A DNA stretch of 48,367 nucleotides from positions 1 to 48,367 of the forward strand of contig QKAF01000086.1 in NCBI GenBank assembly GCA_003246455.1, in the 5' to 3' direction. Every line of letters starts with the position of its first letter. Position 1 is the first letter of the stretch. This document shows positions 3,184 through 20,749 of the stretch, piece by piece. The position numbers and the translations under genes are program-made. The notes below the pieces were generated by a model. That model made no database searches. It saw only the letters and a program-made list of their open reading frames with translations, and was not told the DNA's origin. The DNA is from Bacteroidota bacterium. GTDB taxonomy: Bacteria; Bacteroidota; Ignavibacteria; SZUA-365.

Positions 3184-4371
3184 TTACAGTGCAGCGCGGA
3201 GCACGGTGACGATGTCATCTTTGGTCATAGTCGGACGACCCGGAAGGTTGCCGTTACCGTCATTCATGATGCGCAGCGTGTCTTCCGCATAGCGTTCGAT
3301 CATCTCCTCACCGATACCGAGCTCGGAAAGATGCGTCGGGCACCCGATCGAGCGGAGAAACGCTTCGAATCTGTCGATGCCCTCGCGAGCTGTCTCTTCG
3401 GCTCCTCCGCCGTTGCGCTGCACGCCGAGCACGCGTTCTGCGAACTGGGCGAAGCGTTCAGGACGCTGCTTTGCAGCGACGCGCATCCAGGACGGATTGA
3501 CAACGGCGAGTCCGGCTGCATGAGCCACGTCATGGTGCGCGGAAAGCGTATGCTCGATCGTATGGACCGGATACCCCGCATGGGTTCCGATCTGCACCCA
3601 ACCATTGAGCGCTGCGACCGAAGCCCACTGCACCTGTGTTCTGGCTTCCAGATCATTGCCGTCAGCGACCGCTTTCGGTCCCCATTCCATTGCGGTCTGG
3701 ATCACGCCTTCGGCCCAGCGGTCCTGCAGCGGCGTACCGTCGACACCGTTGAAATATCCTTCTGTCACGTGGGTAATGAGGTCACAAACACCGTAGGCCG
3801 TCTGATCAGCCGGGACCGTTACTGTAAGTTCAGGATCGACAATCGCCACTTTCGGGTACAGGATGGGAACGTTAACGAAGGATTTTTCTTTTGTCTCTTC
3901 ATTCGTAATCACTGCTCCACTATTCATCTCCGATCCCGTCGCCGCGAGCGTCGGAACGGTAATGACGGGCAGCGCCCGCGTCGGCGGTACAAAGGTGCCT
4001 TCACTACTGAAGAACATGTCCCATGGCTCACCTTCATAATAGACCATCGCTGCAATTGCCTTGGCTGCATCCATCGTACTCCCGCCGCCAATTGCGATCA
4101 CGATGTCGCACTTCTCGTCTTTCGCGATCTGGGCGCCTCGTAGCACCGTCGATAGGCGCGGATTCGGTTCAACACCAGCACATTCCACTGCTGAGACACC
4201 GGCAGCCTTCAGGCTGTCAAGTGCGCGGTCGAATGTCCCGCTTTTCTTCACACTACCGCCACCAGTAACCAGCAGGGCCTGCTTGCCATACCTTCCGGCC
4301 ACTTCACCCAACTGCGACAGCGTACCAGCACCAAAAATGATCTGCGTTGGATTCCTGAAATTGAAGTTCAT
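3184..4371 (-). CDS. Iron-containing alcohol dehydrogenase, YqhD/BdhA-like
   Basis: This is a full-length 395-residue group III alcohol dehydrogenase that interconverts aldehydes and alcohols with NAD(P)H in the cytoplasm. The nucleotide-binding turns are GGGSVKKSG (37-45) and GGGSTMDAAK (95-104); GGGS at the first is the NADPH-preferring form in YqhD. Metal ligands fit D197, H201, H270 and H284 (CDLITHVTEG, GYPVHTIEH, HHDVAHAAG), each three residues beyond the YqhD positions. The ATG at 4371 has GGAG seven bases upstream. It is the promoter-proximal gene of the operon that continues into DUF362 and an aldo/keto reductase, which suggests aldehyde detoxification or reduction. It lies inside the low-GC insert. 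Confidence 0.92.
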   Translation of the reverse strand: MNFNFRNPTQIIFGAGTLSQLGEVAGRYGKQALLVTGGGSVKKSGTFDRALDSLKAAGVSAVECAGVEPNPRLSTVLRGAQIAKDEKCDIVIAIGGGSTMDAAKAIAAMVYYEGEPWDMFFSSEGTFVPPTRALPVITVPTLAATGSEMNSGAVITNEETKEKSFVNVPILYPKVAIVDPELTVTVPADQTAYGVCDLITHVTEGYFNGVDGTPLQDRWAEGVIQTAMEWGPKAVADGNDLEARTQVQWASVAALNGWVQIGTHAGYPVHTIEHTLSAHHDVAHAAGLAVVNPSWMRVAAKQRPERFAQFAERVLGVQRNGGGAEETAREGIDRFEAFLRSIGCPTHLSELGIGEEMIERYAEDTLRIMNDGNGNLPGRPTMTKDDIVTVLRAAL

Positions 4372-4550
4372 CTATGCTCCGAGGAAAACTTGTGACTTAT
4401 CAATTCGTGCGATTGCGGGTATGTGTTGCCGGTCCAGCATCGAATGCACCTTCAAGGTACGAGCAAAGTAGTCTTCCCAGGTACCGTGATCCTCTACCAT
4501 TCTTGCCTATTCCTGCGAAAGTTTGGAAATCAGTATCAAGACATGAAAAC

Positions 4551-4584
4551 AGGAGATCCCACCAAACGGTCCACGAGATCTCCT
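4551..4584. repeat. Inverted repeat AGGAGATC / GATCTCCT
   Basis: Two perfect 8-bp arms (4551-4558 and 4577-4584) are separated by 18 bp, about 180 bp upstream of the alcohol dehydrogenase start. There is no T run on either side, so it is not a standard terminator. An operator is possible but unproven. Confidence 0.4.
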
Positions 4585-4841
4585 ATCCTATGAAATAACA
4601 TGGCGTTATGGATGGTGACACAACGGAGTCGTAACATCGCCGGCAAGCTGCCAGAATAGGAATCCTGCACAAAGAACCCGGCATCAAGCCGTTGATAGCA
4701 AGACTACTCCGTTCCTGCCATTCGCGGCCCCAGCTTGGTCAGCGAAAAACTATGGTTGACTTAACCAACTCCCTTTTAGTCAATTCCCCAGAAATCTGTC
4801 AGCTTCTCGAGACCCATCACGGTCGACATGAGTAGACACCT

Positions 4842-4873
4842 CCAGCAGGAGCAACCGCTTGACCTCCTACTGG
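4842..4873. repeat. Imperfect inverted repeat CCAGCAGGAG / CTCCTACTGG
   Basis: The 10-bp arms at 4842-4851 and 4864-4873 pair with one mismatch across a 12-base loop. There is no T run. It sits just before the array of 9-bp direct repeats near the insert boundary. Confidence 0.4.
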
Positions 4874-4891
4874 CCACAAAATTCCATGATC

Positions 4892-4968
4892 TGTTCAGAA
4901 TTTCCGGAACAAATCTCCCAGAATTTGTTCAGAAATCAGGCTCGTATTGAAGGTTGAACTGTTCAGAA
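4892..4968 (+). repeat. Three TGTTCAGAA direct repeats at exact 34-bp intervals
   Basis: Identical 9-mers start at 4892, 4926 and 4960. The sequence between them differs, so this is a phased set of sites and not a tandem duplication. A shorter match (TGTTC) lies at 5007, next to the tRNA remnant at 5014. The arrangement resembles a protein-binding array, such as integrase arm sites or an operator, but no cognate protein gene is seen. Confidence 0.55.
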
Positions 4969-5013
4969 TCGCCGTAAATCCCTACAGGCAGACGGATGAG
5001 TTTAACTGTTCGT

Positions 5014-5057
5014 TCCACTTAGAAGGCAGATGCTCTATCCGGCTGAGCTACGGGAGC
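5014..5057 (-). pseudogene. tRNA-Arg(TCT), 5' half only
   Basis: Read on the minus strand from 5057, the sequence gives a 7-nt acceptor strand GCTCCCG, TA, a D arm GCTC...GAGC and an anticodon arm TCTGC-CTTCTAA-GTGGA with anticodon TCT at 5023-5021. The anticodon stem still closes, but with two G-T wobbles. After that no T arm (no TTCGA loop) and no CGGGAGC acceptor partner follow, so it cannot be a functional tRNA. The break falls around the 3' side of the anticodon arm, where the low-GC insert begins. tRNA genes are common integration targets, so this is read as an insertion or deletion scar. Confidence 0.75.
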
Positions 5058-5107
5058 GGGATAGTTCAACATGAAATATCCGCAGAAATGGGCTGGAATA
5101 CAAGGCG

Positions 5108-6940
5108 CTAGCGCAGATGCACTACCGGCTTCTGTAGCGATCCGTCCACGGTCTGGAGCCTGAGGAAGTACACGCCGGCAGGCAGGTCGTCGGAGCGGAA
5201 TGTGATCCGGCTGCGCCCCGACGGATAGCGGCCTTCTGCCAGAGTGGCGACGCGCCTTCCGGACGGATCGTACAGGTCGAGTCGGATGTCCATTTCCCGC
5301 GGCAGTGTGAATGTCGCCTGGGCGGAAGAAACGAAGGGATGCGGGATGGTGCCCCCGAGCTCTACCGTCGACGGCAGCGCCGCTTCCGCGAGGCCCGAGA
5401 CGTCGGATGTGCCGAAACGGCGAGCGTCGGACCAGGGACCCGGGCCGTCTTCGCTGATCGCGCGAACGCGAACGTAGTAATCCATGTTTTTCGGCAGCAC
5501 CCCCGGATTGTACAGCGTATCCCGCACATCCGGTTCTTCGTACTCGATCACCCCGAAAGTCTGGAATTCCGATATCTGCACCTGGTAGTATTCTGCTCCG
5601 TCAACAGGCTCCCATGCGAAACGCACGCCGTCAAAGGGGAAGGTCTCGCCAGGCACGGGCTGCGTGATGGAGGGCGCACCGACGGACGTGCGGAAAACCC
5701 ACGGCTCGGACCAGCGGCTGCACCCAATGCCCCCGCATGCCCGCACACGCCAGAAATACATGTGCCAGCGCTCGAGCGCAGGGACGGATGCGGACGGGAG
5801 GCTGACCGTATCGTTGTCGAATACGATACTGCTGAACGACGCGTCCCGCGAGACCTGGAGATGATACCGCTCTGCTGCATCTTCCGGCAGCCATTCGCAC
5901 ACCACCGGGTCTTCCACTCCCCTGCCGCCGTTGACGGGTGCAAGAAGAAGGGGAACGCGGGGGTCGGGACGCAGGCCCGCCATGAGCGTCAATCCGGCGA
6001 TCGCTGCCTTCGTCATCCGGGTGAAGAACGGCACCTTGAGTGACGAGGGCGTATCTGTGGGCTTATGGTAATACGGGGTGAAATCCTTGAAATCCTCGAT
6101 CAGCAGAAACGCCGGGTAACTGAACTGCGTGAACGAGTAGTTATCGCTGGGCGTCGTGGAAGTGAGTTCAGGACGCATGTCCAGTCCGAGCGAAAAAGAA
6201 TCGTTCACGGTCTGCATCGCCTCGATCAGCGCCGCCCCGGAGGGGAGATTGTACTGCAGGGTCGTACGCATATCCCCGTTCGAGTCCCAGGCGATCATAT
6301 CGAGATTGAACACCCCGAGGATGCTGTCGCCGCGCGCGCGCGCGTTCCGGGCGTAGTCCTTGCTGCCGATGAGCCCGGCTTCCTCAGCGTCGAAAAAAAT
6401 GTACTCGATCGTATAATCGAACGCGTAGCGGGAAAGCAGACGTGCCGCTTCGAGCACGCCGGCTGTTCCGCTGGCGTTGTCGTCGGCCGCGGGATACCAG
6501 GGATATGCCGCATCATAATGCGCACAGACGATGAATTTCATATCGGGATGGGTCACGCCGGTCTGAATACCGAGCACGTTCCGTCCGTGGGCGAGGAAAC
6601 GCTGCGACCCCGCGAGCAGCCCGTGCCGCAGCAGCTCCTGTTCGAGATAGTCGCCGGCAAGCTCATTGCTCGCCGAGTCGGTGCCGTCATAGCGATTGAC
6701 AATAAGCGTGTCCATGGCGTTCACGAAAACGCGTTTCTCCCCGCACAGCTCCCGCACGCGATCCATGAGCGAATCACCTGAAACGCCCGCGATGATCGAT
6801 GCAATTCCCGTCGCCGCAGGCGGCGGAGCCACCTGGGCCGTCAGGGGGGCAGGCACTCCCGTCGCTGCGAGCAGAAGCAGGAGCACACCCAACCGGAGAA
6901 CACGATTGCTGGGATCGAGTGAATTCATGCGATCGAGCAT
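5108..6940 (-). CDS. Secreted M28 family metallopeptidase with T9SS sorting domain
   Basis: A 610-residue exported zinc aminopeptidase-like enzyme. A signal peptide (LGVLLLLLAATGVPAP) is followed by the M28 catalytic domain (about 55-325). Expected zinc ligands and catalytic acids are H141 (CAHYDAA), D153/D154 (DDNASG), E186/E187 (FFDAEEAGLIGS), D214 (NLDMIAW) and H292 (YYHKPTDT). Two Fn3-like modules follow, then a T9SS sorting domain ending LPAGVYFLRLQT...KPVVHLR. The family cleaves N-terminal residues from peptides, here presumably outside the cell as a nutrient-gathering enzyme. The ATG at 6940 has GGGAGG seven bases upstream. It is transcribed in the same direction as the Fn3 gene upstream, across a 193-bp gap holding an inverted repeat. 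Confidence 0.92.
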   Translation of the reverse strand: MLDRMNSLDPSNRVLRLGVLLLLLAATGVPAPLTAQVAPPPAATGIASIIAGVSGDSLMDRVRELCGEKRVFVNAMDTLIVNRYDGTDSASNELAGDYLEQELLRHGLLAGSQRFLAHGRNVLGIQTGVTHPDMKFIVCAHYDAAYPWYPAADDNASGTAGVLEAARLLSRYAFDYTIEYIFFDAEEAGLIGSKDYARNARARGDSILGVFNLDMIAWDSNGDMRTTLQYNLPSGAALIEAMQTVNDSFSLGLDMRPELTSTTPSDNYSFTQFSYPAFLLIEDFKDFTPYYHKPTDTPSSLKVPFFTRMTKAAIAGLTLMAGLRPDPRVPLLLAPVNGGRGVEDPVVCEWLPEDAAERYHLQVSRDASFSSIVFDNDTVSLPSASVPALERWHMYFWRVRACGGIGCSRWSEPWVFRTSVGAPSITQPVPGETFPFDGVRFAWEPVDGAEYYQVQISEFQTFGVIEYEEPDVRDTLYNPGVLPKNMDYYVRVRAISEDGPGPWSDARRFGTSDVSGLAEAALPSTVELGGTIPHPFVSSAQATFTLPREMDIRLDLYDPSGRRVATLAEGRYPSGRSRITFRSDDLPAGVYFLRLQTVDGSLQKPVVHLR

Positions 6941-6989
6941 GCTGGAACCTCCCGGACGGGGTTTGCGTGGGGTACGCGCGGGCGCGCGC

Positions 6990-7014
6990 TATTCAGGACA
7001 GTTTCCCCTGAATA
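6990..7014. repeat. Inverted repeat TATTCAGG / CCTGAATA flanked by GGGTACGC copies
   Basis: Perfect 8-bp arms at 6990-6997 and 7007-7014 surround a 9-base loop, and a copy of GGGTACGC lies just outside each side. It sits 50 bp upstream of the M28 peptidase start. With no T run it is more likely an operator or mRNA leader structure than a terminator. Confidence 0.35.
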
Positions 7015-7133
7015 TAGGGTACGCCCGAGAGGGATGCAACGCACCGACGCCTCCCGCTTCCCTCCGTGTTCCCTCCCCGCAGGCTCAGATCTCCCGCGGA
7101 CGTCTGTCACGTCCTCCCGATCTACGGGTTTTC

Positions 7134-9281
7134 TCAGGGGACGATAATCGCCCCGGTGTACTGCAGGGGGGATTCCCCGCCGTCGGCGTACAGGACTTTC
7201 ACCGCGTATTTCCATGTGCCCGAAGCGGACGACTCTTCGAAACTGCGATCCTCGGCCTTCACGCTTCGGTAAAGCCGCGCGGGGTTCGTGCCGTCTGAGC
7301 GATACAGCTGGAAGGAAATGGCGTCTTCGCCCTCCCATGCCCACTGCACCACGACCTTCCCCTGCTGATCGTCATACCGGCCGCTGACGTCCTTCACGCC
7401 GTCGTAACGGAGACGTCCTCCCCGTCGGGCCACGACGACATTGGAAAGCGGTGAGCGCAACCCATCGTCGTCGTAGGCGTAGACCGCGTATTCGTACTGC
7501 ACGAATGCGTCGACGGCTGTGTCGCGATAGCTGCGAAACTCCTTGCCGCCGAGCGAATCCAGCCGGCCCCATCCCTCGGTGCCCGCGCGCCGGCGCACGA
7601 GGACGTGCGACGCCGCATCGGAAGTCGGACTCGGGTGCCAGGCGATTTCCACCCCGTCGTCTTTCACCTCGAGCGAGTGGATCAGCGGCGCGGACGGTGG
7701 CACGATATCCGGTTTTTTTGCGGTCAGCATTTCGCTGAACGGGGAATGATTGAAATTGTAATCCAGCGCCGTCACCTTGTAATAGACTTCCTCCGACAGC
7801 GTTTTCAGGGTCAGCGTATCCACGAACGTGGTGTCCCTGCTGATCGTTGTCGTCAGCTGCTGGAACTCATGCGACGGATCGTTGGCGTAGAATACGCGGT
7901 AGCCCTGCAGGTCTTCCTCCGTGTTGGCCGTCCATGACAGGTTGAGCACGCCGGCCGAGTCGATGCTGGCGCGCAGCCCGGTGGGAACCGCCGGCGGGAT
8001 CGAATCGGGGAACAGTGCGAGGACCGGAGCGGACATGCGGCTGTTGCCCGCCGTATCGACCGCAGCGACCACGTAATAATGCGCCGGCTGCGTATTCACA
8101 TTTCGATCCACGTAGCTGCGATCGGTCTTCGGAAGCAGATCCGTGATGAGATCGAACGGCCCCTCGGGCGACATGCTCTTTGCAATCATGAAGCCGTCAA
8201 GGTCGTCGTCTTCCGCACCGCGCAGCTCCCAGTGAAGTTTCACCGAGGTTTCATCCACGATTTCGTAGGGCTGGATCGCCGGCTGCTTCGGTGCGGTCCT
8301 GTCTCTGCCCATCGCGGTGATTTCCACACCGGGAGGCGACAGTTCGCCGAACGCCGTGGTCCCGCGCACGCGGTACACGACGGGAACGTAGTTTTTTTCC
8401 ACATGAATACTGTATTCGACCACCGGCTGCTCCGCTTCTCCGTCGCGGGTTACGGTCATGAACGGAATGTCGCTCCTCGGCGCGAAGCTCCTGCCTCCGT
8501 CCGTCGACTGCTCGATGATGTACCCCCCGTAGCTGCGCTCGAGATGCTCGAATCGATCCCAACGGAGGACGATCTGGCGTTCGCCCTCCTCCGCCCGCAG
8601 CGACATGATCGCGGGGAGCGGCTCCGTCCTGCGTGCGATCGCCATGACGATCATGGTATCCAGCTCGACATCGGGGACAGCGGCCGCGGGATAGATCCGG
8701 TAGAAATATCCTTTCCCGGGTGTGACGTCCTTGTCTTCGTAGCGCAGCCCGAGACCGGACGCGAGGTCCGCGCGCAGATCGGCGAGCAGGAGCGCGAAGC
8801 CCATCAGGTTCTGCTGCTGCATGTGCAGTTCGACGATCGATCCGAAAGGGTCGCTCGACGTCACGACGCTCTGGCCGTACAGCGTCTGCACGGCGGCGCC
8901 GGCGAGTGAATCCTCCGGCAGAAAGCGGGATTTCCATTCATCCAGTGTCAGCGGTTTGACCGGGGCCGCGGTAAGCCGTTTCCACTCGAGCTGAACGTCG
9001 CTCTTCGGACTTCCGCGCAGTTCCGCACGCTCTATGACGAGCCCGGCGCGGGTGACGGCTTTCCACACGGGATATTCGGCAAAACCCCAGCGGAGGGTGA
9101 TGGCATCGGGACTCTCCCGCGCGATGAGGCGCATGACCGCTGCGCCGCTGCTGTCGCTGTCCGCCGCCTGCTGCGCGTACACGGAAACCGGGAGGAAAAA
9201 AATCACCGACAGCATGGCGAACAGGAGGCCTGCTGCCAATTTGATGTCGGAAGGGAATACATTGTGCTTCATGGGATTCAC
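7134..9281 (-). CDS. Secreted multi-domain fibronectin type III protein
   Basis: A 715-residue protein with a signal peptide (AAGLLFAMLSVIFFLPVSVYAQ). After a ~170-residue N-terminal region it is built from consecutive Fn3-like modules with repeated WDRFEH, LHWELRG, LSWTANTEEDLQGYRVF, IAWHPSPTSDAASHV and VQWAWEG strands. Such repeats bind proteins or sugars or act as spacers; no enzyme motif is seen. It has no T9SS sorting tail, unlike the neighbouring peptidase. The first codon (GTG, 9281) overlaps the stop of the 1983-residue gene as GTGA, so translation is probably coupled; an ATG at 9272 is an alternative and keeps the signal peptide. It is the last member of the barrel/giant/Fn3 operon. 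Confidence 0.8.
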   Translation of the reverse strand: MNPMKHNVFPSDIKLAAGLLFAMLSVIFFLPVSVYAQQAADSDSSGAAVMRLIARESPDAITLRWGFAEYPVWKAVTRAGLVIERAELRGSPKSDVQLEWKRLTAAPVKPLTLDEWKSRFLPEDSLAGAAVQTLYGQSVVTSSDPFGSIVELHMQQQNLMGFALLLADLRADLASGLGLRYEDKDVTPGKGYFYRIYPAAAVPDVELDTMIVMAIARRTEPLPAIMSLRAEEGERQIVLRWDRFEHLERSYGGYIIEQSTDGGRSFAPRSDIPFMTVTRDGEAEQPVVEYSIHVEKNYVPVVYRVRGTTAFGELSPPGVEITAMGRDRTAPKQPAIQPYEIVDETSVKLHWELRGAEDDDLDGFMIAKSMSPEGPFDLITDLLPKTDRSYVDRNVNTQPAHYYVVAAVDTAGNSRMSAPVLALFPDSIPPAVPTGLRASIDSAGVLNLSWTANTEEDLQGYRVFYANDPSHEFQQLTTTISRDTTFVDTLTLKTLSEEVYYKVTALDYNFNHSPFSEMLTAKKPDIVPPSAPLIHSLEVKDDGVEIAWHPSPTSDAASHVLVRRRAGTEGWGRLDSLGGKEFRSYRDTAVDAFVQYEYAVYAYDDDGLRSPLSNVVVARRGGRLRYDGVKDVSGRYDDQQGKVVVQWAWEGEDAISFQLYRSDGTNPARLYRSVKAEDRSFEESSASGTWKYAVKVLYADGGESPLQYTGAIIVP

Positions 9282-12200
9282 GGCTTGAATATGATGGTTT
9301 TTTCCGGAGCGACGCCGACGCCCGGATAATAGTACTTGACGTAGAGACGCTGGTTGTCGTTGAACCGCATGGTCCAGTAACTGTAGTTGTTCACGCCGTA
9401 ATCATCGGCGAGGTCCGGCGGACAGTTGTTGCTCATGAAATGCCAGAATTCCGGTGTATTCCTGAGGCTGCTCCCGTAGTACCGGTACAGCAGTTCGGTG
9501 ATCACCAGGTCGCGATCGCGCATGAGCACCGCCGGAATATCGTAACGCAGGACGAGCTTGTGCCATTCCGCCGCCTTGATATTCAGCCCGGCATTCAGTC
9601 CCGGGTTGACATTCCCGACCTTCACCGTTTTCGCGCTTACGTACTTCGCGCCGCCTCCCTGCGACTGGGGAACGTAATCCTTCCAGAACACCGCATTGAT
9701 TTCCTGATTCGTCAGTTTCGACGACGGCCCCGTTCCCTGGTAGCGCAGGTCGGTGGCGTCCGCGGGGAAGCGCACTTCCGACAGACGCGTGCCGTGGGTC
9801 AGCCGGCTGCCCGGACGATACGCGTTCGTACTCGGATATTCCCGCACTGTCCGGGGATTCGGTCCGTTGCCCATCATTTCCGATGCGATGTAGGTATTGC
9901 GGATATAGTCGTTGTTCAGGCCGTAACGGTAGTAATCGTTGTACAGCCGGTTCCAGTACGTCTGGCTGCTCGGCCCCGTACCCGCGTTCCGCGCCTCCGC
10001 ATGAAAATGCGGTTCGACATACTGCGTGATCGACCCCTTGTTCCAGGTGTATTCCTCCAGGTCGTACGAGTCGAATGCCTCCTCGCCTTCATAGGTGATT
10101 TCCAGCGAGTTGTATGCGAGATCATCCTGGTTGTTCGACCGGCGCTTCATGGCGGTGAGGTTCCCGAGATACGCGTTCATTTTCGACTGATACGTGGAGT
10201 ACTTGCTGGTCTTGAATGCCAGCTGGTATACCATGAATTCATTGTCCGCAAGACGGATCGCGTTGAAGCGCGAGCGGCGCACGTCGATCGACTGTCCTGA
10301 GCCGAGGTTCTGCGAGACTTTCTTCTGCTCGAAATTTGAACCGCCCTGGTTGCTGTTGTAGTTGAGCTGCATGTTGCCCTGCTGCAGGGACTTCGGCATG
10401 CGTTTCCGCACGACCTGGACGATATAGATCGTCTCGGTCTTGAGCGGGGGAATTCCGAACTTGACCCCTTTGAAGCCGCCGGAATTCTGCCACTGAATCG
10501 GCGTCTCGCCCGCCACTTCACTCCCCGACTTGATCTCCTGGAAGCGCGCGACATATTTATATTCGTACGCCGGATCGTTGGGTGTCAGGTTGGGGATGTT
10601 GCTCGGGTACTGCTTGAATTCGATCGAACCCTGCGAACTCGTGCTCTTCGGGTAGTAGCGCTGCATGCGACCCGGGAGGGTCACCGTGATCAGATCGTTG
10701 CGGAAATTCTCCGGCGCCTTTCCTGTCGTGAAGTTGACGGTCTCGGTTTCGACGTGGTCGTTGTTGCAGTTCGCGCATTCCTTTATCCGCACCCACTGAC
10801 CGTTGACCTTGCGGTCGCCGTGCACCTGCACGTCGATTCGGTAGTTGGTCAGCTCGTCGAACATTTCTTCCGCCTCGAACTGCGCGGAAAGACTCTCGTT
10901 GAACTTGCTCCAGTCGCCGGCAACCTTCGCGTTGCCCTGCACCTTGCGGACTTCAAACTTCTTGATGTCGAAACGGAACGACACGGTCTTGGCTTCCTGG
11001 TTCTCGTCCAGGACCTCGACGGAAATGACCTTGTCCTGTCCGACCGGGAGGTTGAACGCAACCTCGGGGAAGGCGAAGCAATCCACCTCGCTTCCCGTCG
11101 GTATGATTTCCGATATCACTTTCAATCCTTCGAAGGGATCTCCTTCGTTCGGATTGCAGTACGTGCCGGTGCGGAACTTGAAGTTGATATGTCCGGTGAG
11201 CAGGCCGTCGAACACGTTGTAGTAGCCCGCGACTTCACCCATCATCCAAGTCGGCTTCGGGAGGCCCGCCTTCAGCGCAGCGATGAGACCGACTTCGAGA
11301 ATGACGATCTTCTTCTGTATGAACCAGAGATTGATGTCGATGCCGACGCCCGCGATGATGCTCGTGTAGACCTGCCCGGTCGCGTACCAGCCGTTAAAGC
11401 CCATCTTGCCGCCGACCTCTTCGCAGTACGCGTTGGTCTGCAGGATGGAGACGTCAAAACCGAAATCGATGACGAGCTGCGCATAGAAGATGAGAAACTT
11501 CAGTTCGCCGGTATCGATGGAGAGCTGCTGCCCCATGGCGAAACCGGTTCCGTTTTCCGTCGCCGGCGAGCGCGGGTTCTGGTCGTTGAAACTGGGGAGA
11601 TAGGCCGCATAATTGACCGGACTCGTCGGGAGATCCGGCATCGGCCCGAGACTGTTTTTCCCTGCCATGAGATACGTCTTGATGCTCAGCAGGTCGAGGA
11701 CGTTGAGCTGCAGCGGATTGTCGGGCGTTCCGAATTTGATGAACCACTTGTCCTTGCTCACATGGAACGCGGCATCGCCTCCGCCCGTGATCAGGTCGGT
11801 GTTCCCCGCCTTGACGTTGAACGCCATGGAAATCAGACCGTCGAAACGCTTGAACTCGTTGTCATAGAGGAAATTCGCGGTCGCCACGATGACCGCATCG
11901 TCACCCGGCCGGTTCTTCGGGTCGAGCGTCTGCACGAAATAACCGTTTCCGATGAAGCCGATTTTCTTGAGTCCGCCTCCTTCGAAGAATTCGATCATGA
12001 GCGTGATATCCCCGTTGAAGGCTTTCGGTGTCGGCATGGTGCCGAGCACGATCGTCGCCTTCATGCCGAACGCGATATCCGGACGCGGTTCGTAGACCAC
12101 GCCGGAAGACGTCGCGCCGGGCGCATCGAGTTCGAAACCGTCGACAGAATTCGGATCACCTTCCAGCGATGCCGCCGTCGGCGCGTCGTTGACCGCGCTC

Positions 12201-15200
12201 ATGTGATACCATGCACCGCCGCCGAACCCGTATATGCCGAGGCCGGTGAAGATCGGGATGCCCGTCCCCATCTTCGCCATACCGTCGAAGTACCAGTAGC
12301 GGTAGCGCTGACCGCCGTTCTTGTACGTGGTGCTGCCGAACTGGACCGTGGCGCTGACCTCGACGACAGGACGGAACGCGACCATGAGCGCCCCGCGGAA
12401 ACCGTCGCCGAATTTCTCGTCGCCGTTGTAGAGTTCCACCGAGCCCTTGATTTCACAGGCGGCGACGCTCGCGTCGATTTCGATGGAATTGAGCTCGGGT
12501 TTGTCGATCTCCCAGTGCTGCTTGCCGTTCTGCGGCGTCATCTTCGCCCATATGGTGAAACTCGTCGCACCGGAGATGGCCGACTGGCCGTTGCCGTCGA
12601 GCCCGACACGGAACCCGAGCATGAGGCCCACACGGTCATCGCCGTCGAACTTCAACCCGATGCCGTCTCCCAGATCGATGGAAACCGGGAAGCCGGCGAA
12701 GCTCTTTTCCTCGCTGGCGAATTTGAAGTACTCGGCGGTCAGGTACGGCTTCTTGTTCCGGATGGTCAGATCCTTGAACTCCACGTCAGGAATCTTGACG
12801 GCGACGTTTTTCATCTCGGGGAACGACTTGTCGATTTCCAGTTCGCCGCTGAGTATGGCGGCGACGGTGACATCGTTCTGCTGCGTTTCGACCTGGATGC
12901 CCGACCCCGCGGAAAGCGTCAGCGTCGCTCCCCACATCGGCACTTCGATATCGCCGAGCGTCTCGACCTCGAATTCGGTATGCAGCCCCTGGTTGCTGTT
13001 GCTCAGCAGGCAGGTGTAGCCCAGGCCGGTATTCGCGACCGGCAGCTGAATGCTGCCCTGGAATTCACCCATGACCAGTGAATTGTTCACCATGCTGAAG
13101 GAGAACTCGTCCATCGAGAAGCCCCAGCCGCCAAGATTGCCTTCCCCGATGGAGAACACCGGCTGGACACTCACCGTCCCGGTGAAGCCCGTCTTGTTGA
13201 TCAGCGCGTTGCTCATGCTGATGGTGACCGGTTCGTTGCCCTTCTTGAGGTAATCCGGGAGCGTCAGCGTAATGTTCTTGAAATAGAAACCGCGCCAGTC
13301 CAGGCTCTGCGTTCCCTGGTAGCCCTGGGGATAGACGATGTTCTGCGGGTTCCGCAGATCGGAGAAATCGAGCACCACTTCATCGAAGTCCATGCGGAGC
13401 CCTCGCATGCCTGCGATCACGAACGGTTCCATTTCGATCTCGCCGAGAAGGTCGCCCCAGGCGGTACCGTTGAACACGAATGACGCGGTGACCGGGCCCT
13501 GTCCTTCCGCTTTCTCGATGAGACCGCCTTCGAATGTGAAGCCGCCTTCGATCTGCAGCTCCTGGAAACCTTCACAGTTCCATGCGACGTACGTTCCGCC
13601 ATTCTGTCCGCCGGCGGCCTTGATCGTGCAGTCGATGTTCGGCCCCCAGTCGAACGTGTAATCGTTCCCGAGCATCGTGAGCTTCTGCAGTCCTTCGATG
13701 CTGAGTCCGGTCGGATGGAAGCAGACGTTTTTCTGCCCGAACGCAAGGATCTGATTGTTCGCCTCCGGGATCGGCATGTCGAAAAATGCATTGAGCCGCG
13801 CACCGTCCGGCGCGAATTCCACCGCGACGATGTTGACGAGCTGAATTTCGCTCGAGAGCAGCTTGCTCCAGCTGAAGGGCAGTCCCTGCACATTCGCATC
13901 GACGAAATTCTCGATGTACTTCTGGCCGTTCTGCACGTAGTCCGACACCTGTTTGACGTAATCGCCGGTGATCTGATCGAGGTTGTTCGTGAAATCCTTC
14001 AGCTTCTGATTGATCTGGGCACCGGGATCGTACGCGCCGATCACCTTCCCAGAAAACACCTTGTTTTCGGCATTGACCTGAAGGTTCTGGAACGTAGCGC
14101 GAAGCCGCGTATGGAAGACGGGTGCGTCGACGACGCCTTCACCGCTGAGACTCCCTGCCGCGGTATTGGACAGGGCGGTGATCTCCATGATGAAGTAGCC
14201 GATCTGGATCTCGTCCCCGACCTTGTACGACTTGTTGGCGGCCGGACCGGTCGCCAGCGGCTGCGGCGCGCAGTTGAGCACCGCGCAGTCGTCGGCGTAC
14301 ATCTCCTCGATGTCGACTTCTTCCTCCTCCTCTTCTTGTCCGCCTCCGCCTTCCTGCCAGAGGAATGAACAGGCGACGGAATGCCCGTTATTCTGGAACA
14401 GAAGCGAGGGCGAACCCTGGCGGCTTCGGGCGGTCACGCGCCAGGCGTACTTCCTTCCCGCTTCAAGCAGCGGCGCGCCGGGTCCGTAAAGAAAGGAGTT
14501 GGTCTGCGTCACCGCGGTGAAAAACGGGGGATCGGTGGCCGCAAGCACGGCCTGATTCGGATCCGCGTCCTGCGGATTCATTTCCACCATGGTGATCACG
14601 TACTCGATATGCTGCGGCGGGGCCCCGGCGGGAATGGTCCAGCTGAGCACGAGATTCTGCGGGTTCACCGCCTGCGCGTTCCCATTGCACGTCGGCTGGA
14701 GAATTTCCGGAACCTCGAAATGCGTGATGCTGAAGTACGCGCAGCCCATCGGGGCGGGCATGGAAAGCGCGGTGCCGTTTGCGTAGTCCACCGCCTGCAC
14801 ACAGAAACTGTAGTCGCCTTCCGGAAGCCCGTTCCCCTGCACCACTTCCGCTTTCGAAATCCCCTGGAACTGCAGGACGTCGGGATTGAGATAATCCGCC
14901 AGGGCATTGCCCATCAGGGCGACGCTCTGATTCGGGGCGATCTGAATCGGCTGCGGCGGCTGATAATTCTGCGGAATGGTGATCGTGATGTTGTTGCCTC
15001 CCTCGATACGGCCGATCAGGCGAACGTTCTGCGGCACGCCGGTCGTATTCGTGAGATTGATCACCACCTTGTTTTCCACCGAGACGTAGTCCGACAGATA
15101 GGGCGAGTACGGCGGCAGGACCTGCGTAGTCACCAGGATGGTATTTTGCGCTGCAAGGGGCGCCGCGGAGAAAAGCAGCAGGAGCAGGACGCGCGCGCCG

Positions 15201-15229
15201 GCGATGGAAAGCTCAGAATGTATACGCAT
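9278..15229 (-). CDS. Giant secreted beta-rich protein with TANFOR-like N-terminal domain
   Basis: A 1983-residue protein with signal peptide (AGARVLLLLLFSAAPLAAQ). Residues ~30-175 match by eye the TANFOR-type domain of Bacteroidota giants (VLPPYSPYLSDYVS, ITIPQNYQPPQPIQIAP, LPEGDYSFCVQAVDY, GCAYFSI). A module with paired Cys follows (PTCNG...LVLSWTIPAG), then an acidic run of about a dozen residues (~299-309). The long middle and C-terminal regions are beta-rich, with little resemblance to any enzyme. No T9SS sorting tail is seen; it ends KTIIFKP. The start at 15229 is chosen because it places the signal peptide at the N-terminus; an ATG at 15271 would add 14 residues. It overlaps the upstream barrel gene by 17 bp and the downstream Fn3 gene by 4 bp, indicating coordinated synthesis of a three-part surface complex. 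Function unknown. Confidence 0.75.
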   Translation of the reverse strand: MRIHSELSIAGARVLLLLLFSAAPLAAQNTILVTTQVLPPYSPYLSDYVSVENKVVINLTNTTGVPQNVRLIGRIEGGNNITITIPQNYQPPQPIQIAPNQSVALMGNALADYLNPDVLQFQGISKAEVVQGNGLPEGDYSFCVQAVDYANGTALSMPAPMGCAYFSITHFEVPEILQPTCNGNAQAVNPQNLVLSWTIPAGAPPQHIEYVITMVEMNPQDADPNQAVLAATDPPFFTAVTQTNSFLYGPGAPLLEAGRKYAWRVTARSRQGSPSLLFQNNGHSVACSFLWQEGGGGQEEEEEEVDIEEMYADDCAVLNCAPQPLATGPAANKSYKVGDEIQIGYFIMEITALSNTAAGSLSGEGVVDAPVFHTRLRATFQNLQVNAENKVFSGKVIGAYDPGAQINQKLKDFTNNLDQITGDYVKQVSDYVQNGQKYIENFVDANVQGLPFSWSKLLSSEIQLVNIVAVEFAPDGARLNAFFDMPIPEANNQILAFGQKNVCFHPTGLSIEGLQKLTMLGNDYTFDWGPNIDCTIKAAGGQNGGTYVAWNCEGFQELQIEGGFTFEGGLIEKAEGQGPVTASFVFNGTAWGDLLGEIEMEPFVIAGMRGLRMDFDEVVLDFSDLRNPQNIVYPQGYQGTQSLDWRGFYFKNITLTLPDYLKKGNEPVTISMSNALINKTGFTGTVSVQPVFSIGEGNLGGWGFSMDEFSFSMVNNSLVMGEFQGSIQLPVANTGLGYTCLLSNSNQGLHTEFEVETLGDIEVPMWGATLTLSAGSGIQVETQQNDVTVAAILSGELEIDKSFPEMKNVAVKIPDVEFKDLTIRNKKPYLTAEYFKFASEEKSFAGFPVSIDLGDGIGLKFDGDDRVGLMLGFRVGLDGNGQSAISGATSFTIWAKMTPQNGKQHWEIDKPELNSIEIDASVAACEIKGSVELYNGDEKFGDGFRGALMVAFRPVVEVSATVQFGSTTYKNGGQRYRYWYFDGMAKMGTGIPIFTGLGIYGFGGGAWYHMSAVNDAPTAASLEGDPNSVDGFELDAPGATSSGVVYEPRPDIAFGMKATIVLGTMPTPKAFNGDITLMIEFFEGGGLKKIGFIGNGYFVQTLDPKNRPGDDAVIVATANFLYDNEFKRFDGLISMAFNVKAGNTDLITGGGDAAFHVSKDKWFIKFGTPDNPLQLNVLDLLSIKTYLMAGKNSLGPMPDLPTSPVNYAAYLPSFNDQNPRSPATENGTGFAMGQQLSIDTGELKFLIFYAQLVIDFGFDVSILQTNAYCEEVGGKMGFNGWYATGQVYTSIIAGVGIDINLWFIQKKIVILEVGLIAALKAGLPKPTWMMGEVAGYYNVFDGLLTGHINFKFRTGTYCNPNEGDPFEGLKVISEIIPTGSEVDCFAFPEVAFNLPVGQDKVISVEVLDENQEAKTVSFRFDIKKFEVRKVQGNAKVAGDWSKFNESLSAQFEAEEMFDELTNYRIDVQVHGDRKVNGQWVRIKECANCNNDHVETETVNFTTGKAPENFRNDLITVTLPGRMQRYYPKSTSSQGSIEFKQYPSNIPNLTPNDPAYEYKYVARFQEIKSGSEVAGETPIQWQNSGGFKGVKFGIPPLKTETIYIVQVVRKRMPKSLQQGNMQLNYNSNQGGSNFEQKKVSQNLGSGQSIDVRRSRFNAIRLADNEFMVYQLAFKTSKYSTYQSKMNAYLGNLTAMKRRSNNQDDLAYNSLEITYEGEEAFDSYDLEEYTWNKGSITQYVEPHFHAEARNAGTGPSSQTYWNRLYNDYYRYGLNNDYIRNTYIASEMMGNGPNPRTVREYPSTNAYRPGSRLTHGTRLSEVRFPADATDLRYQGTGPSSKLTNQEINAVFWKDYVPQSQGGGAKYVSAKTVKVGNVNPGLNAGLNIKAAEWHKLVLRYDIPAVLMRDRDLVITELLYRYYGSSLRNTPEFWHFMSNNCPPDLADDYGVNNYSYWTMRFNDNQRLYVKYYYPGVGVAPEKTIIFKP

Positions 15230-16910
15230 AGCCAAGTACCAGTGTGATTTCTGAAAATCTGTCTTTTGCATAATATCCAGCCGTCGATTGCACGAATGAC
15301 GCCTGAGCGGAGAAGCTGTGGCGACGCAGCAGCGCGTAGCTTGCGCCGGCAGTCGCGGTCAGGGTATTCCCCGCGTTATGGAAGGAGTATCCGCTTCCCG
15401 CGGTCAGGCGCAGCGCCTGTTCGAGCAGGGATTTACTTGCCGAAAGGGAGACGCCGCTGTTGCGGTATACGCCGCCCGCATTGTCGAGACGCGTGGTATT
15501 TCCTCCGGCGGTCAGCGAAAACTGCTGCTTGCTGAGCGCGAGGGTATAGCTGAGGTTGAGATTCATCGTGCTGTATTCGGCATAGCGGGAGGTGAACGGA
15601 TTGTTGTCGTTCATCTGCTGATACATGATGCCGAGAAGGAATGAATGCGATGCAGGGCCGCTGGTGAATGAATAGCGCGGCATAACGCTCAGCATCGGAT
15701 TGCTCTGATCGAGCTGTGTCGTGTCGTTGAGCCGCGCGTACCCGTCGGACTGCGATGTCAGCACGTCGGTGTACTGTATATCGATTCCCCACTGCGGCGC
15801 AGGGAGGACGCTGATCGCGACCACGGGCATGAATCTGCTCGTCGTCGCCCGTTTCTTGTTCTGCAGGTTGTCGTGACGAAAGGTGAACGTCGCGTTGACG
15901 CGGGCCGCGCCCCCGAAGAGGACGAGCCGCGGTGCGAGCGCGAAACTCTGCAGGTCGTTGGTCATGTGATACGCTCCCATGGACTGGTAATCGGGATCAA
16001 TCCGGTTATAGGTGCCGGTGATTCCGAAGCGCTGCATCGTCCATGCCACGCCGGCTTTGACGGCGGTATAGAACTGGGTGGAAGTGCGCGTTTCCGAAAT
16101 TCCCTGAAAGGCATCGAGATGGCTGTTTTCCTCGCTCTCCACTGTCTGGGAGCGGACGTCGCGGGTGTAGTCGCTTGCAGCGGCGTCGAGCGAGAGGCGG
16201 AGCCCCTGGACGATCTCCGCGCTTCCGGTGAAACCGAGGACGAGATTCTCCCCGGGGAGCACCAGCGCATTTGTCGGCGGCCGGCGCAGCGAGCCCGGAT
16301 CATCTTTCGCCTTGAGGAAAATGACGTCGAAATAATCGGCGCTGTTGCCGATGCCCAGCCGTCCCGCGTATCCCGTCCGCTCGTATGCCGGGAGGGTGAA
16401 CCGCCCTGCGGCGGTATCCTCTTCCACCGCGCGCTGCAGGCGGCCGTACATCAACCCGAAGCGGAAAAGCCCCGGATTTCCTTCCAGTCCGCCCCCGAGA
16501 AACTGATGCCCCGCGAGGGTGTACGGAGAGAACGTGAGCGTCCGATATCCGAAGTGCCCGCGCATCCATTTCCATGTCGGGCTGGCGCCGAACTGGTTGA
16601 ACGGCTGCGCGAAATCTCGTTCCTGTTCGCTGTACGTGAAGCTGAACGGGAAATCCACATCGTACAGATTCACATTCACCGTCCCGTTCAACACCCAGGA
16701 GAAGGGCTCCCTTCGGTTCCGAATTTCGTTCGCCGTGTAGATGACCGCCCGCGCGGATACCGATCCGCCGACGTGCAGGGGATCGGTTTCCCCTATCGTC
16801 GACAGGTTCTGGGCATGTACGTGCATCGCGGCAGTATACACGACGACCGCTGTTACGGCGCAACGCCTGAACAGCGTACGACACAAATCTCTCAATGGAA
16901 CCTCTGGCAC
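15213..16910 (-). CDS. Outer-membrane beta-barrel protein, first gene of the TANFOR-protein operon
   Basis: A 565-residue protein with an N-terminal signal peptide (CAVTAVVVYTAAMHVHAQ). The rest alternates polar and hydrophobic residues in short strands with aromatic girdle residues (FSFTYSEQERDF, LFRFGLMYGRLQ, ATFTFRHDN, MNLNLSYTLAL) and ends in an aromatic strand, ITLVLGYAYTF. This is the signature of a barrel inserted by the BAM machinery. No plug domain or TonB box is seen, so it is not a typical TonB-dependent receptor. The start is a GTG at 16910 with AGGAGG about a dozen bases upstream; later ATGs would remove the signal peptide. Its stop overlaps the giant gene's start. It plausibly serves as the outer-membrane anchor or export partner of that protein; this is inference. 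Confidence 0.75.
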   Translation of the reverse strand: MPEVPLRDLCRTLFRRCAVTAVVVYTAAMHVHAQNLSTIGETDPLHVGGSVSARAVIYTANEIRNRREPFSWVLNGTVNVNLYDVDFPFSFTYSEQERDFAQPFNQFGASPTWKWMRGHFGYRTLTFSPYTLAGHQFLGGGLEGNPGLFRFGLMYGRLQRAVEEDTAAGRFTLPAYERTGYAGRLGIGNSADYFDVIFLKAKDDPGSLRRPPTNALVLPGENLVLGFTGSAEIVQGLRLSLDAAASDYTRDVRSQTVESEENSHLDAFQGISETRTSTQFYTAVKAGVAWTMQRFGITGTYNRIDPDYQSMGAYHMTNDLQSFALAPRLVLFGGAARVNATFTFRHDNLQNKKRATTSRFMPVVAISVLPAPQWGIDIQYTDVLTSQSDGYARLNDTTQLDQSNPMLSVMPRYSFTSGPASHSFLLGIMYQQMNDNNPFTSRYAEYSTMNLNLSYTLALSKQQFSLTAGGNTTRLDNAGGVYRNSGVSLSASKSLLEQALRLTAGSGYSFHNAGNTLTATAGASYALLRRHSFSAQASFVQSTAGYYAKDRFSEITLVLGYAYTF

Positions 16911-17079: not shown

Positions 17080-18573
17080 CTATCCCTCTCCAGTGAAGCG
17101 GATCGGGAGGCGCAGGGTGAACGTGCTCCCTTCTCCCCAGGTACTCTCGACGGTGATGTTTCCGTGATAGGATTCGACGATCTGTTTTACGATCGAGAGG
17201 CCCAGCCCTGTCCCCGGAATGGCTCGCGTCTCGTCATTCTTTATCCGGTAGAACTGCCGGAACAGGAGTTCCCGGTCCTCGGGCTTCATCCCGATACCGC
17301 GGTCGCGGATCGCGATGCTGACGACGCCGTCTTCCCGCTTCGCCCGTACCGCGATACTCCCTTTCTCACGGTTGTACTTGATGGCATTGCTGACGAGGTT
17401 CGTGAGCACACGGGAAAATTCGTCACGATCGATATCGATGGTCGGCAGCGCGTCGTCGAATTCCGCCTTCCAGGCGATGCCGCGCTTTTCCATTTCGCCG
17501 TGCAGCAGTTCGCGCGTGCTCTCCACCACCTCTTCCACCCGCACGGCCGCGATTTCGCGACGCACCGTTCCGAGTTCCCGACGACTGATATTGAGCAGGT
17601 CGTTGACGAGATCGATCAGTGCCTGCAGTCTTTCGCCCGACCGCACGATCATCCTTTCATAGCTGCCGACATCGTCGCCGAGCACACGGCTGTTCATGGT
17701 CTCGAGGTAGCCGCTCACCGCGGCGACCGGCGCTTTGAGTTCATGCGCGACCATGGAAACGAACTGCGACTTCTGGGCGTCGAGCCGTTTGAGCTGCGTG
17801 ACATCCTGGATGGTGGTGACGAACCCGATGATGTCTCCGGCCGGATCCCGGACCGGCGCGGTTTTCATATTGACGAACAGTTCGAGGTTCGGCTTCATTT
17901 CCCATTCATGCGAGATCAGCTCGATGCCGTGCGGCGCCTTCTCCTGCGCCTCCCTGATCAGCGCGATGACCTCCGGGGGGAGCAGGTCACTGATCCGGTC
18001 GCCTGCCGCGATGCTGGCGGGAAATTCGAACAGCGCGCGCGTCTGCGGATTCGCGAGCACGATTTCATCCTCGAGGTTGGTCACGAACAGCGCGTCGCTG
18101 ACGGCGTTGATGATTGTGCGCAGGCGGCTCTTTTCCTGGCTGATCTCCAGCAGGCGTCGGCGCTGTTCGGCGCGCAGTTCGCGGGTCTCCAGCGTGAGCC
18201 GGCGCTTGCCCAGCGCGCGGTTGACCTCGAAGACGATCTGGTCCGGCGTGAACGGCTTCGGGATGTACGTGTAGGCGCCGTGCCGGGTCGCCTCCACGGC
18301 CGTATCGATGCCCGCGAAAGCGGTGATCATCATATACTCGGTGTCGGGATAGACTTCCTTGAGCTGGCGCAGCACGGTCAGTCCGTCGATGTCGGGCATT
18401 TTCAGATCGATCAGCGCCACGTCGAATTCCTTGGCGGCGCCTTTCTCCAGCCCCTCCGTGCCGTTTTCCGCCACGGTCACGTCGTAGCCTTCGAGGGTGA
18501 AAATCCGGCGAATCCCTTCGCGCATCCCGAGTTCGTCATCGACGACGAGCAGCTGCGGTCTGTACTCTTCCAT
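17080..18573 (-). CDS. Receiver-PAS-histidine kinase
   Basis: A 497-residue cytoplasmic signalling protein. The receiver domain (1-120) has the acidic pair D12/D13, phospho-acceptor D56 and K106 (YIPKPF). A PAS domain follows (~150-262), then the dimerisation domain with H277 (VAHELKAPVAAVSGYL) and an ATPase domain with N box (NLVSNAIKYN) and G boxes DRGIGM and GTGLGLSIV. The N-terminal receiver lets another kinase phosphorylate it and control its own kinase activity. It starts one base after the stop of the iron-sulfur sensor kinase, so the two are co-transcribed and that kinase is the obvious upstream partner. No DNA-binding regulator is encoded nearby, so the final output is elsewhere. Confidence 0.93.
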   Translation of the reverse strand: MEEYRPQLLVVDDELGMREGIRRIFTLEGYDVTVAENGTEGLEKGAAKEFDVALIDLKMPDIDGLTVLRQLKEVYPDTEYMMITAFAGIDTAVEATRHGAYTYIPKPFTPDQIVFEVNRALGKRRLTLETRELRAEQRRRLLEISQEKSRLRTIINAVSDALFVTNLEDEIVLANPQTRALFEFPASIAAGDRISDLLPPEVIALIREAQEKAPHGIELISHEWEMKPNLELFVNMKTAPVRDPAGDIIGFVTTIQDVTQLKRLDAQKSQFVSMVAHELKAPVAAVSGYLETMNSRVLGDDVGSYERMIVRSGERLQALIDLVNDLLNISRRELGTVRREIAAVRVEEVVESTRELLHGEMEKRGIAWKAEFDDALPTIDIDRDEFSRVLTNLVSNAIKYNREKGSIAVRAKREDGVVSIAIRDRGIGMKPEDRELLFRQFYRIKNDETRAIPGTGLGLSIVKQIVESYHGNITVESTWGEGSTFTLRLPIRFTGEG

Positions 18574-18574
18574 G

Positions 18575-20626
18575 TCAGCGGCCCGGATGCACGTGATGCG
18601 GATTCGGGGAAAGCGCCGCGGCGAGTTCGCGCGGCGACATCTGCGACGCAGCCGGATAGTCGCGAAGGTCCATCGGCATGGTGATGGTGAACGTCGTTCC
18701 TCTCATGACCTCGCTGCGGACGGTGATCTGCCCGTGGTGCAGCTTGACGATGCCGTAGGCAATCGGCAGACCGAGCCCGGTGCCCTTTCCGATCTGTTTG
18801 GTCGTGAAAAACGGGGTGAAGAGGCGGGAGAGGTTCTCCTTCGGGATTCCGCTTCCCGTATCGTCGAAGGCGATCACCATGTCACGCGGCGTTTTCGCCT
18901 GCCCGACGCTGATCCGCAGTCTCCCGCCGTCGGGCATCGCTTCGCAGGCGTTCATCGCGAGGTTCAGCAGTACCTGCTTCATCTGATCGACGTCGAGGTA
19001 CAGCGGCGGAAGCTGCGCATCGATGTCGCATTCGATTTCGATTTCCGAGAACTCCTCCCGCTTGCGTATCATGGCGGTAATCGGTTCGAGCAGGTCGGCC
19101 GCGGAAATCCGGTTCAGGACGAGCTTCCCCTGCCGCGCGAAATTGAGCAGGCTGCTGACGATGGTGCGGCAGCGTTCGGCTTCCTCGATGATGAAGCGGA
19201 TATCCTCCTGCGCGGGATCCATTTCCTTCAGCTGTTTGAGGAGGAGATGCGAGTACAGCACGATGGTGCCGAGGGGATTATTGATTTCATGCGCCACTCC
19301 GGCGGCCAGTTGTCCTACTGAGGCGAGTTTCTCCGTCTGAATGAGCTGGGCCTGCGCCTCGGCGAGTTCCCGATGCGAACGCTCGAGATTATCGATCGTG
19401 TACTGCAGGCACATTTCCTTTTCCGCGATGCCCCGCGCGACGGCGATCGCCAGTTCACGGCAGCTCTCATACCCGCAGGCCGCGCAGTTGATCTGATCCT
19501 CCGCTTCGTGTTTGCCCATGGTATGCAGAATGTGCTGAATCTCCCGCTCTTCCGGGATGCGCTCCTCGATATGGCGGTCTTCGTAGGCGCGCGTCAGGTC
19601 GAGGTGGCGCGACCGTTCGAGCGAGTCATGCCAGTCGGCCTGGTCGAGCGCCCGATGCCGCGATTTGACCCAGGAGATGATGCACTCCCGCCGCTCGTAG
19701 TAATTGAGCGGGCTGCTCATTCCCGGACCGTTGATGCAGCCCTCACAGAAAAGAATGTCAATCAGCTTGCTCTGCACTTTTCCCTGGGCGAGCTCGTTGA
19801 TCATGTTCAGACAGCGCTGCCGTCCTTCCACCACGATCACCCCTTCATCCATCACGTCCGAACTGATGCCCGCGCTTTTCAGGAGTCCGCCGGAGACCGG
19901 GTAGATCTGTCCGAGCGCGGCGCGCGGCGGGTCGAACTCCTCCGCCGGCTGTGCCGCCACGTCGATTCCCGCCTCCGCGAACAGCGCGGAGAGTTCGTCG
20001 AAGGTCAGGGCCGCGTCGATGACGCCGGCCACGTGTTCATCGAGAATTTCGAGCTTCTTCGCGACGCAGGGACCGATGAACGCCACCATCGCATCCTCGC
20101 CGTATTTCTCCCGCATGACCTTGCCCGCCGCGATCATGGGCGACACGATGGGCGCAAGATTCGGAATCAGCTCGGGATGGTATTTTTCTATGTATTCGAC
20201 AACCGCGGGACAGGGCGTGGTAATCACGGGATCGTCACGCTGCGCAACATGCTCCCGGTACGCTTCGCTGACGAGATCCGCCCCGAAAGCGACCTCCGCG
20301 ACGCGGGTGAATCCGAGCGTCCGCAGGGCGCCGACGATACAGAGCGGATCGACCGCCGGGAACGCCGCGGGAAACGACGGGGCGACCAGCGCCACTTTTT
20401 CGTTCGCCGTGCCGCGCGCGAGACGCTCCCGGAGCGGCGAGATGCCGTCGCGCACCGATTTGGCGTTCTGCGTGCAGACCTTCAGGCAGTTTCCGCAGCC
20501 GACGCAGCGCGCAGACAGCACGACCGCCTGGCCGTTCATGATCTGAATGGCGTTGGCCGGACATTCGCGGACACAACAGTAGCATCGCTTGCAGCGCTCG
20601 GGGACAGTCGATACGACGCAGTTCAT
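18575..20626 (-). CDS. Iron-sulfur / [FeFe]-hydrogenase-like sensor histidine kinase (HydS type)
   Basis: A 683-residue sensor. Two ferredoxin clusters come first (C12, C15, C18, C22; C41, C44, C47, C51). A domain related to the [FeFe]-hydrogenase large subunit follows (~75-310). Its three cluster loops are reduced to TTPCP (C139), GPCVAKK (C187) and FCEGC (C294, C297). The cysteine used for proton transfer in true hydrogenases is replaced by proline, and the last loop is CxxC instead of CxxxC. A further 4Fe-4S motif (C381, C384, C389, C406) leads into a kinase with H446 (GVAHEINNPLG) and GTGLGLPI. H2-producing activity is unlikely; redox or H2 sensing is inferred. The ATG at 20626 has GGAAAG upstream and matches family N-termini. 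A CRP/FNR-type palindrome lies ~125 bp upstream. Confidence 0.88.
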   Translation of the reverse strand: MNCVVSTVPERCKRCYCCVRECPANAIQIMNGQAVVLSARCVGCGNCLKVCTQNAKSVRDGISPLRERLARGTANEKVALVAPSFPAAFPAVDPLCIVGALRTLGFTRVAEVAFGADLVSEAYREHVAQRDDPVITTPCPAVVEYIEKYHPELIPNLAPIVSPMIAAGKVMREKYGEDAMVAFIGPCVAKKLEILDEHVAGVIDAALTFDELSALFAEAGIDVAAQPAEEFDPPRAALGQIYPVSGGLLKSAGISSDVMDEGVIVVEGRQRCLNMINELAQGKVQSKLIDILFCEGCINGPGMSSPLNYYERRECIISWVKSRHRALDQADWHDSLERSRHLDLTRAYEDRHIEERIPEEREIQHILHTMGKHEAEDQINCAACGYESCRELAIAVARGIAEKEMCLQYTIDNLERSHRELAEAQAQLIQTEKLASVGQLAAGVAHEINNPLGTIVLYSHLLLKQLKEMDPAQEDIRFIIEEAERCRTIVSSLLNFARQGKLVLNRISAADLLEPITAMIRKREEFSEIEIECDIDAQLPPLYLDVDQMKQVLLNLAMNACEAMPDGGRLRISVGQAKTPRDMVIAFDDTGSGIPKENLSRLFTPFFTTKQIGKGTGLGLPIAYGIVKLHHGQITVRSEVMRGTTFTITMPMDLRDYPAASQMSPRELAAALSPNPHHVHPGR

Positions 20627-20749
20627 CAGGTCTTTCCATCGCGTGAAACAGGAGGCGATCCGGGATCCGACGGCGTGGTGCCGGACGATCAGCCCCGTAT
20701 TGCAAATTCGCAAAGCGGGCACTGACATCCAATGCCATTCGGCAATATA

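Follow-up and report, generated by a model that had tools for sequence, protein, structure and literature searches.

What holds the very large TANFOR-domain proteins of the Bacteroidota at the cell surface, and by which route do they cross the outer membrane? The question of their passage, which also concerns antibacterial toxins, dates from 2020, and in this work we have put it to a three-gene locus on contig QKAF01000086.1 of a Bacteroidota bacterium (Ignavibacteria, SZUA-365; assembly GCA_003246455.1). The whole stretch of DNA analysed, 48,367 nucleotides, is referred to as the window. The three genes encode a predicted barrel (A), a giant protein (B) and an Fn3 protein (C). We found that A, C and a conserved core of B make up a gene set which recurs across the phylum in the company of TANFOR domains, and in our view the chances are about even that this set is the outer-membrane anchor or export scaffold of TANFOR loci. 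For the passage of these proteins, barrel and core giant offer concrete candidate parts. The three genes are:

15213-16910, minus strand: gene A, 565 amino acids (aa), GTG start, C-terminal Phe, predicted outer-membrane beta-barrel
9278-15271, minus strand: gene B, giant beta-rich TANFOR-like protein of 1983-1997 aa
7134-9281, minus strand: gene C, Fn3-repeat protein of 715 aa, identified from Fn3 structure matches and family alignments

All three open reading frames (ORFs) are present on the minus strand in the predicted order and positions, tightly packed as one operon with no gaps. The original prediction gave B a length of 1983 residues and overlaps of 17 bp with A and 4 bp with C, and considered the three genes to be closely coupled. 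The length and the first overlap hold if B starts at its second in-frame ATG, at 15229, whereas the first ATG yields 1997 aa and an overlap of 59 bp; similarly, the 4-bp overlap (GTGA) belongs to the GTG start of C, and use of the ATG at 9272 leaves a 5-bp gap instead. The exact overlaps thus vary with the choice of start codon, but the tight packing holds either way, and the coordinates and the close coupling first noted are right. Similar packing recurs in relatives.

Could the arrangement be due to chance? Named genomes were scanned for relatives of B; 123 were confirmed, and the best 80 were kept. Loci of relatives are labelled by L-numbers (L039 and so on). The relatives were found in Kapabacteria and Ignavibacteria metagenome-assembled genomes (MAGs), in Cytophagales, Saprospirales-type genomes, Flavobacterium, Chitinophaga, Pedobacter and others, and the gene order which recurs among them is A-B-C or B-C-A. 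Among 89 non-duplicate loci with the B core, C lay on the same strand in 80, within 200 bp in 72 and overlapping in 31 (median gap 1 bp), and A, the core and C stood together on one strand at 43 loci. Over these 43 loci the tree distances, taken without a species-tree correction, correlated at 0.89 for B and C, 0.64 for A and B and 0.60 for A and C, and none of 2000 permutations was as high. The window's genome also holds a second trio on a separate contig, whose giant (L058 7993-13884, 1963 residues) detectably resembles B in the N-terminal region only, where the two have the TANFOR/Fn3 part in common. This second, divergent trio in the same genome, together with the 43 one-strand loci, argues that the grouping is not a matter of chance. 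The gene set is conserved across Bacteroidota and Ignavibacteria, its parts are inherited together, and the giant was not found to be a stand-alone protein in most genomes, the core being nearly always accompanied by C with A nearby. As for the species names, the loci L064, L079 (JADZEY) and L108 (JASGCP) come from records titled Armatimonadetes and Phycisphaerales and look like those of Chlorobiota/Bacteroidota, for which reason the JADZEY and JASGCP MAGs are probably misnamed or contaminated.

The locus scan is biased toward core-bearing genomes, and frequencies were taken instead from a sample of 296 Bacteroidota genomes. A strong A match was present in 62 of these, the TANFOR domain in 69, the core in 31 and C in 57. 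Larger proteins of some 800-950 aa with a weaker match to A were regarded as a different barrel family and do not enter the counts. Every one of the 62 genomes with a strong A had a TANFOR domain (Fisher p 2e-56), and C was present in 31 of the 31 core-bearing genomes. Within 20 kb of the 35 places where the core occurs we found A at 31, C at 34 and TANFOR at 33, some of the exceptions being contig ends or weaker A matches. Fifty of 85 A genes lay no more than 500 bp from a TANFOR domain, many of them beside TANFOR giants which have no core. From these pairing counts the tightest links are therefore those of A with TANFOR and of the core with C. With an alignment-based profile the TANFOR domain was detected in 96 of the 296 genomes.

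What kind of proteins are these? AlphaFold2, supplied with 31 relatives, modelled A as a barrel of about 25 long strands (pLDDT, the predicted local distance difference test, 88; pTM, the predicted template modelling score, 0.74), and A is confidently predicted to be an outer-membrane beta-barrel, as had been proposed. In a fold comparison its nearest solved structure was the MtrB barrel (6r2q; Z 21.9 over 461 of 565 residues, root-mean-square deviation (rmsd) 5.3, 13% identity), followed by pilus ushers (PapC/FimD) and OprD-type porins at Z of about 17. No family in Pfam, NCBIfam or PHROGs, PorP/SprF and ushers included, matched A above noise, and sequence searches of the PDB with A and B gave nothing useful. 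The A proteins of Flavobacterium (L139 7382-9826, L140 9640-12090 and L141 11251-13698) have some 250 additional residues after the barrel, and the L139 copy had no Pfam or NCBIfam match. That C is an Fn3 protein was confirmed by a sequence search, in which it matched solved Fn3 tandem structures of receptor phosphatases (E 4.5e-9); in PHROGs it matched Fn3-type tail proteins only. The parts of the giant are:

14786-15133, minus strand: TANFOR-like N-terminal domain, residues 47-162 of B (TIGR02542)
14414-14695, minus strand: Fn3-like domain, residues 193-286 of B (PF00041, E 0.0024, 18.5 bits, cut-off of 25 not reached)
11144-14284, minus strand: conserved core of about 1047 residues, common across Bacteroidota (alignments A1 and A6)
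11144-12859, minus strand: second half of the core, a porin- or ApoB-like meander with 22 long beta strands of amphipathic character
9278-11143, minus strand: C-terminal part, kept among orthologues in a region-wise identity comparison

In the window copy of B, TANFOR, Fn3 and core are a single polypeptide. The TANFOR-like N-terminus is real by a hidden Markov model search with TIGR02542, yet it scores below threshold (E 1.9e-9; 37.6 bits, curated cut-off 67). The core matched no family in Pfam or NCBIfam, and its AlphaFold2 model had a pLDDT of 82 and a pTM of 0.46. Fold comparison covered model residues 476-1028 and reached a Z of 12.2 at best; we claim no fold family for the core, whose matches were generic long-strand ones (LptD, porins, ApoB) with poor rmsd. 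The strands of its second half have one hydrophobic and one polar face and, in a strand analysis, were amphipathic at a level slightly above that of the strands of A. For this reason the second half of the core could be another barrel in the membrane, or else an amphipathic sheet that does not close. We also considered whether the core is homologous to A, or whether it is a relative of SprA, and rejected both: the hhalign probabilities were 1.2% for A and 0.1% for the core profile against an SprA alignment, and TIGR04189 did not match B. The N-terminus of B is hydrophobic and ends in AxA; the export signals of all three proteins were judged by eye only.

The place of the trio among known loci is given by the work of Jana, Salomon and Bosis (2020, PMC7073777), who described TANFOR loci as polymorphic-toxin loci of Bacteroidetes with Fn3, SprB and sorting-tail proteins as neighbours. 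The original prediction knew of no assigned function for such a set. This was too strong, as the set belongs to these toxin loci, although barrel and core giant both go unmentioned in the text of that paper, and the open-access literature yielded no known system made up of just these three families. Homologues of A, the core and C flank TANFOR proteins in Flavobacterium, Chitinophaga and Ohtaekwangia. The core protein of Flavobacterium, Chitinophaga and Pedobacter (about 1550 aa) has no TANFOR domain, which is a separate protein there; next to the core come C and then a protein with SprB repeats and Por_Secre_tail, and the full gene order in Flavobacterium and Chitinophaga is core, C, the SprB-repeat protein, A and TANFOR. 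A was present in 22 of the 22 genomes with a non-fused core. We scanned the C-terminal 500 residues of nine TANFOR (or next-ORF) proteins at Flavobacterium-type loci for toxins and found Endonuclea_NS_2 in L139 and L143, WHH in L142 and, at L148, PT-HINT in the ORF which follows TANFOR; the scan gave nothing clear in the other five. Between C and the SprB protein some Flavobacterium loci have a tandem row of three ORFs, each of about 390-480 aa and alike at their ends (L101 16475-20688, L141 2494-6312); these may be fragments or an array undergoing recombination. The conserved barrel and core giant, the toxin-less fused form and the pairing of A with TANFOR appear to be new in the open-access literature, the TANFOR locus itself being known.

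How might such a scaffold work? From conservation, gene order, co-occurrence, the predicted folds, the toxin domains on some partners and the presence of a type IX secretion system (T9SS) in the genome, we infer the location, docking, export and function of the trio as follows. A, B and C would all enter the periplasm by Sec, and A would insert into the outer membrane as a wide barrel. Because A genes pair nearly exclusively with TANFOR domains, proteins with this domain could dock on A, pass through it or be sheathed by it. The core of B may form the body of the complex as an amphipathic beta structure of great length; since B and C are coupled, C would bind to this core as an Fn3 spacer or linker. 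The flavobacterial and chitinophagan copies of the gene set adjoin the SprB/T9SS-tail protein and a separate TANFOR protein, which can carry a nuclease toxin. The window copy would act like the scaffold of a toxin locus, carrying a giant in place of the toxin. In this Kapabacteria-like genome TANFOR is joined straight to the core and a toxin is not detectable, so that what this copy displays is most likely the giant itself, serving adhesion or capture. Probably the three proteins make up a surface complex whose likely holder is the barrel; the arrangement first noticed is confirmed and its interpretation partly supported. The finding also suggests a docking role for TANFOR rather than that of a toxin marker, which would alter the annotation of many large "TANFOR" proteins. 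More tentatively, A, the B core and C may belong to a pathway of Bacteroidota, so far undescribed, that exports or displays proteins at the outer membrane and has TANFOR-recognised substrates, adhesins in some lineages and antibacterial toxins in others.

Several observations speak against a scaffold common to TANFOR loci. A strong A was missing within 20 kb of 37 of 114 TANFOR domains, and none of the 296 genomes passed the curated cut-off of TIGR02542. A partner is missing at some loci: a giant of 3660 aa stands alone at L050, and the L046 copy has no A. The pTM of the core leaves its overall shape uncertain, part of the co-inheritance is shared ancestry, and the link between A, B and C comes from gene data and single-protein models. 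The L050 giant (4005-14987) consists of TANFOR and core with neither A nor C adjoining, and the similar L079 copy has C.

Could the T9SS explain the locus instead? In this main rival explanation, which partly overlaps with the proposed scaffold and which we regard as doubtful, tail-less TANFOR giants are exported by the T9SS and A anchors them as PorP/SprF-type proteins anchor type B substrates. T9SS was reported in more than 95% of TANFOR genomes and TANFOR proteins were proposed as its substrates (PMC7073777). In line with this, SprA was found in 12 of 12 genomes checked, that is, in the window's genome, where it is split over two contigs, and in all 11 others, and proteins with T9SS tails adjoin the trio at window positions 5108-6940 and at L040, L067, L127 and L132. 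However, a system this common in the phylum is of little discriminating value. As predicted originally, A, B and C have no sorting tail (no match to Por_Secre_tail or TIGR04183 at E 1), and A is far bigger than a 14-strand barrel as well as lacking a PorP/SprF match. We consider it rather unlikely, too, that the trio works as a complex for surface adhesion or polymer uptake and has nothing to do with toxins, with TANFOR as an outer-membrane docking module of adhesins and toxins alike. It would agree with the giants of the window's group, which have neither a toxin domain nor a variable end, with the many TANFOR proteins of 2600-4500 aa beside A in which no toxin was detected, and with the TonB-dependent receptors or regulatory gene which adjoin some loci (L067, L076, L039, L042). 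Against it, B and C yielded no domain for carbohydrate binding or catalysis, and TANFOR toxins lie beside the scaffold genes in several genera.

Is B itself a toxin? Jana et al. proposed this for TANFOR proteins generally, and an unrecognised toxin domain could be sought in its unannotated C-terminal 600 residues, given the TANFOR-like N-terminus and the discovery of BaCT in such a region (PMC7073777). Full-length orthologues of B are 76-51% identical, and the identity of the C-terminus declines gradually with no swap (at L039, 78-87% in the core and 59-75% in the C-terminus); part of this region is common to toxin-less core proteins of Flavobacterium. The homologues at L051-L053 stop right after the core. 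No toxin family of Pfam or NCBIfam matched B, and directly downstream we found no immunity gene or separate toxin gene but the Fn3 protein C and an M28 peptidase. Since the C-terminus is not swapped, the core is the last part of some homologues and neither a toxin nor an immunity gene was seen, we did not file B as a polymorphic toxin and hold this reading to be very improbable. Hardly credible is the notion that A is used like its nearest structures, as an electron conduit or a pilus usher. The Z score of MtrB is well over the rest and PapC and FimD come next, but likeness of barrels alone reflects strand number and not function. The heme motif CXXCH was absent from the A and C proteins and occurred once in all B proteins of the set, and no usher family of Pfam matched A. 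An anchor or export scaffold accounts best for the trio.

The surroundings of the trio include two further features:

17023-16995, minus strand: sigma-70-like site TTGACA-17-TAAATT 5' of A, a consensus match only (10 of 12 positions)
5108-6940, minus strand: M28 peptidase (PF04389, E 8e-31) with Fn3/Ig domains and a T9SS-type tail, the 3' neighbour of C

The promoter site is weak, because the region holds six such sites where 3.5 are expected. Directly upstream of A lies a response regulator-PAS-histidine kinase hybrid (17080-18573, minus strand), and a similar protein of 497 aa with the same domains is found upstream of A at L042 (7439-8932); regulation of the trio by this hybrid kinase is possible. 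Next to it, at 18575-20833 (minus strand), an iron-only hydrogenase large-subunit domain (Fe_hyd_lg_C, E 5e-53) is fused to a histidine kinase (HATPase_c), and the product probably senses redox state or hydrogen. Two close relatives have a two-component-propeller/Y_Y_Y/SpoIIE phosphatase protein immediately 5' of A, at L042 (3926-7351) and L039 (1583-4915); it is absent in the window. The tail of the peptidase scores slightly below the TIGR04183 cut-off (20.6 bits, cut-off 23). The peptidase is possibly linked to the trio; its place there is not conserved, as other genes follow C in L039 and L040.

How does the trio compare with known systems? With MtrB of the MtrCAB complex, which encloses a partner protein, A has only the wide barrel architecture in common, at low identity and with no heme partner. 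The PorP/SprF and SprB pairs of the T9SS also place a barrel gene beside the gene of a giant surface protein, and the flavobacterial version of the trio includes SprB-repeat proteins; in contrast, A has about 25 strands and no PorP/SprF match, and B has neither SprB repeats nor a sorting tail. The core of B and the SprA translocon barrel, an outer-membrane protein, are both very large, strand-rich and from the same phylum, but their profiles show no similarity and the window's genome has a separate SprA. From the TANFOR toxin loci the window trio differs in that TANFOR is fused to the core and matches below the cut-off, and no toxin or immunity gene was seen. It has a TANFOR-like N-terminal domain and, judged by eye in B, a putative Sec-type signal, and shares with them the Fn3 and T9SS-tail neighbours and a genome which has the T9SS.

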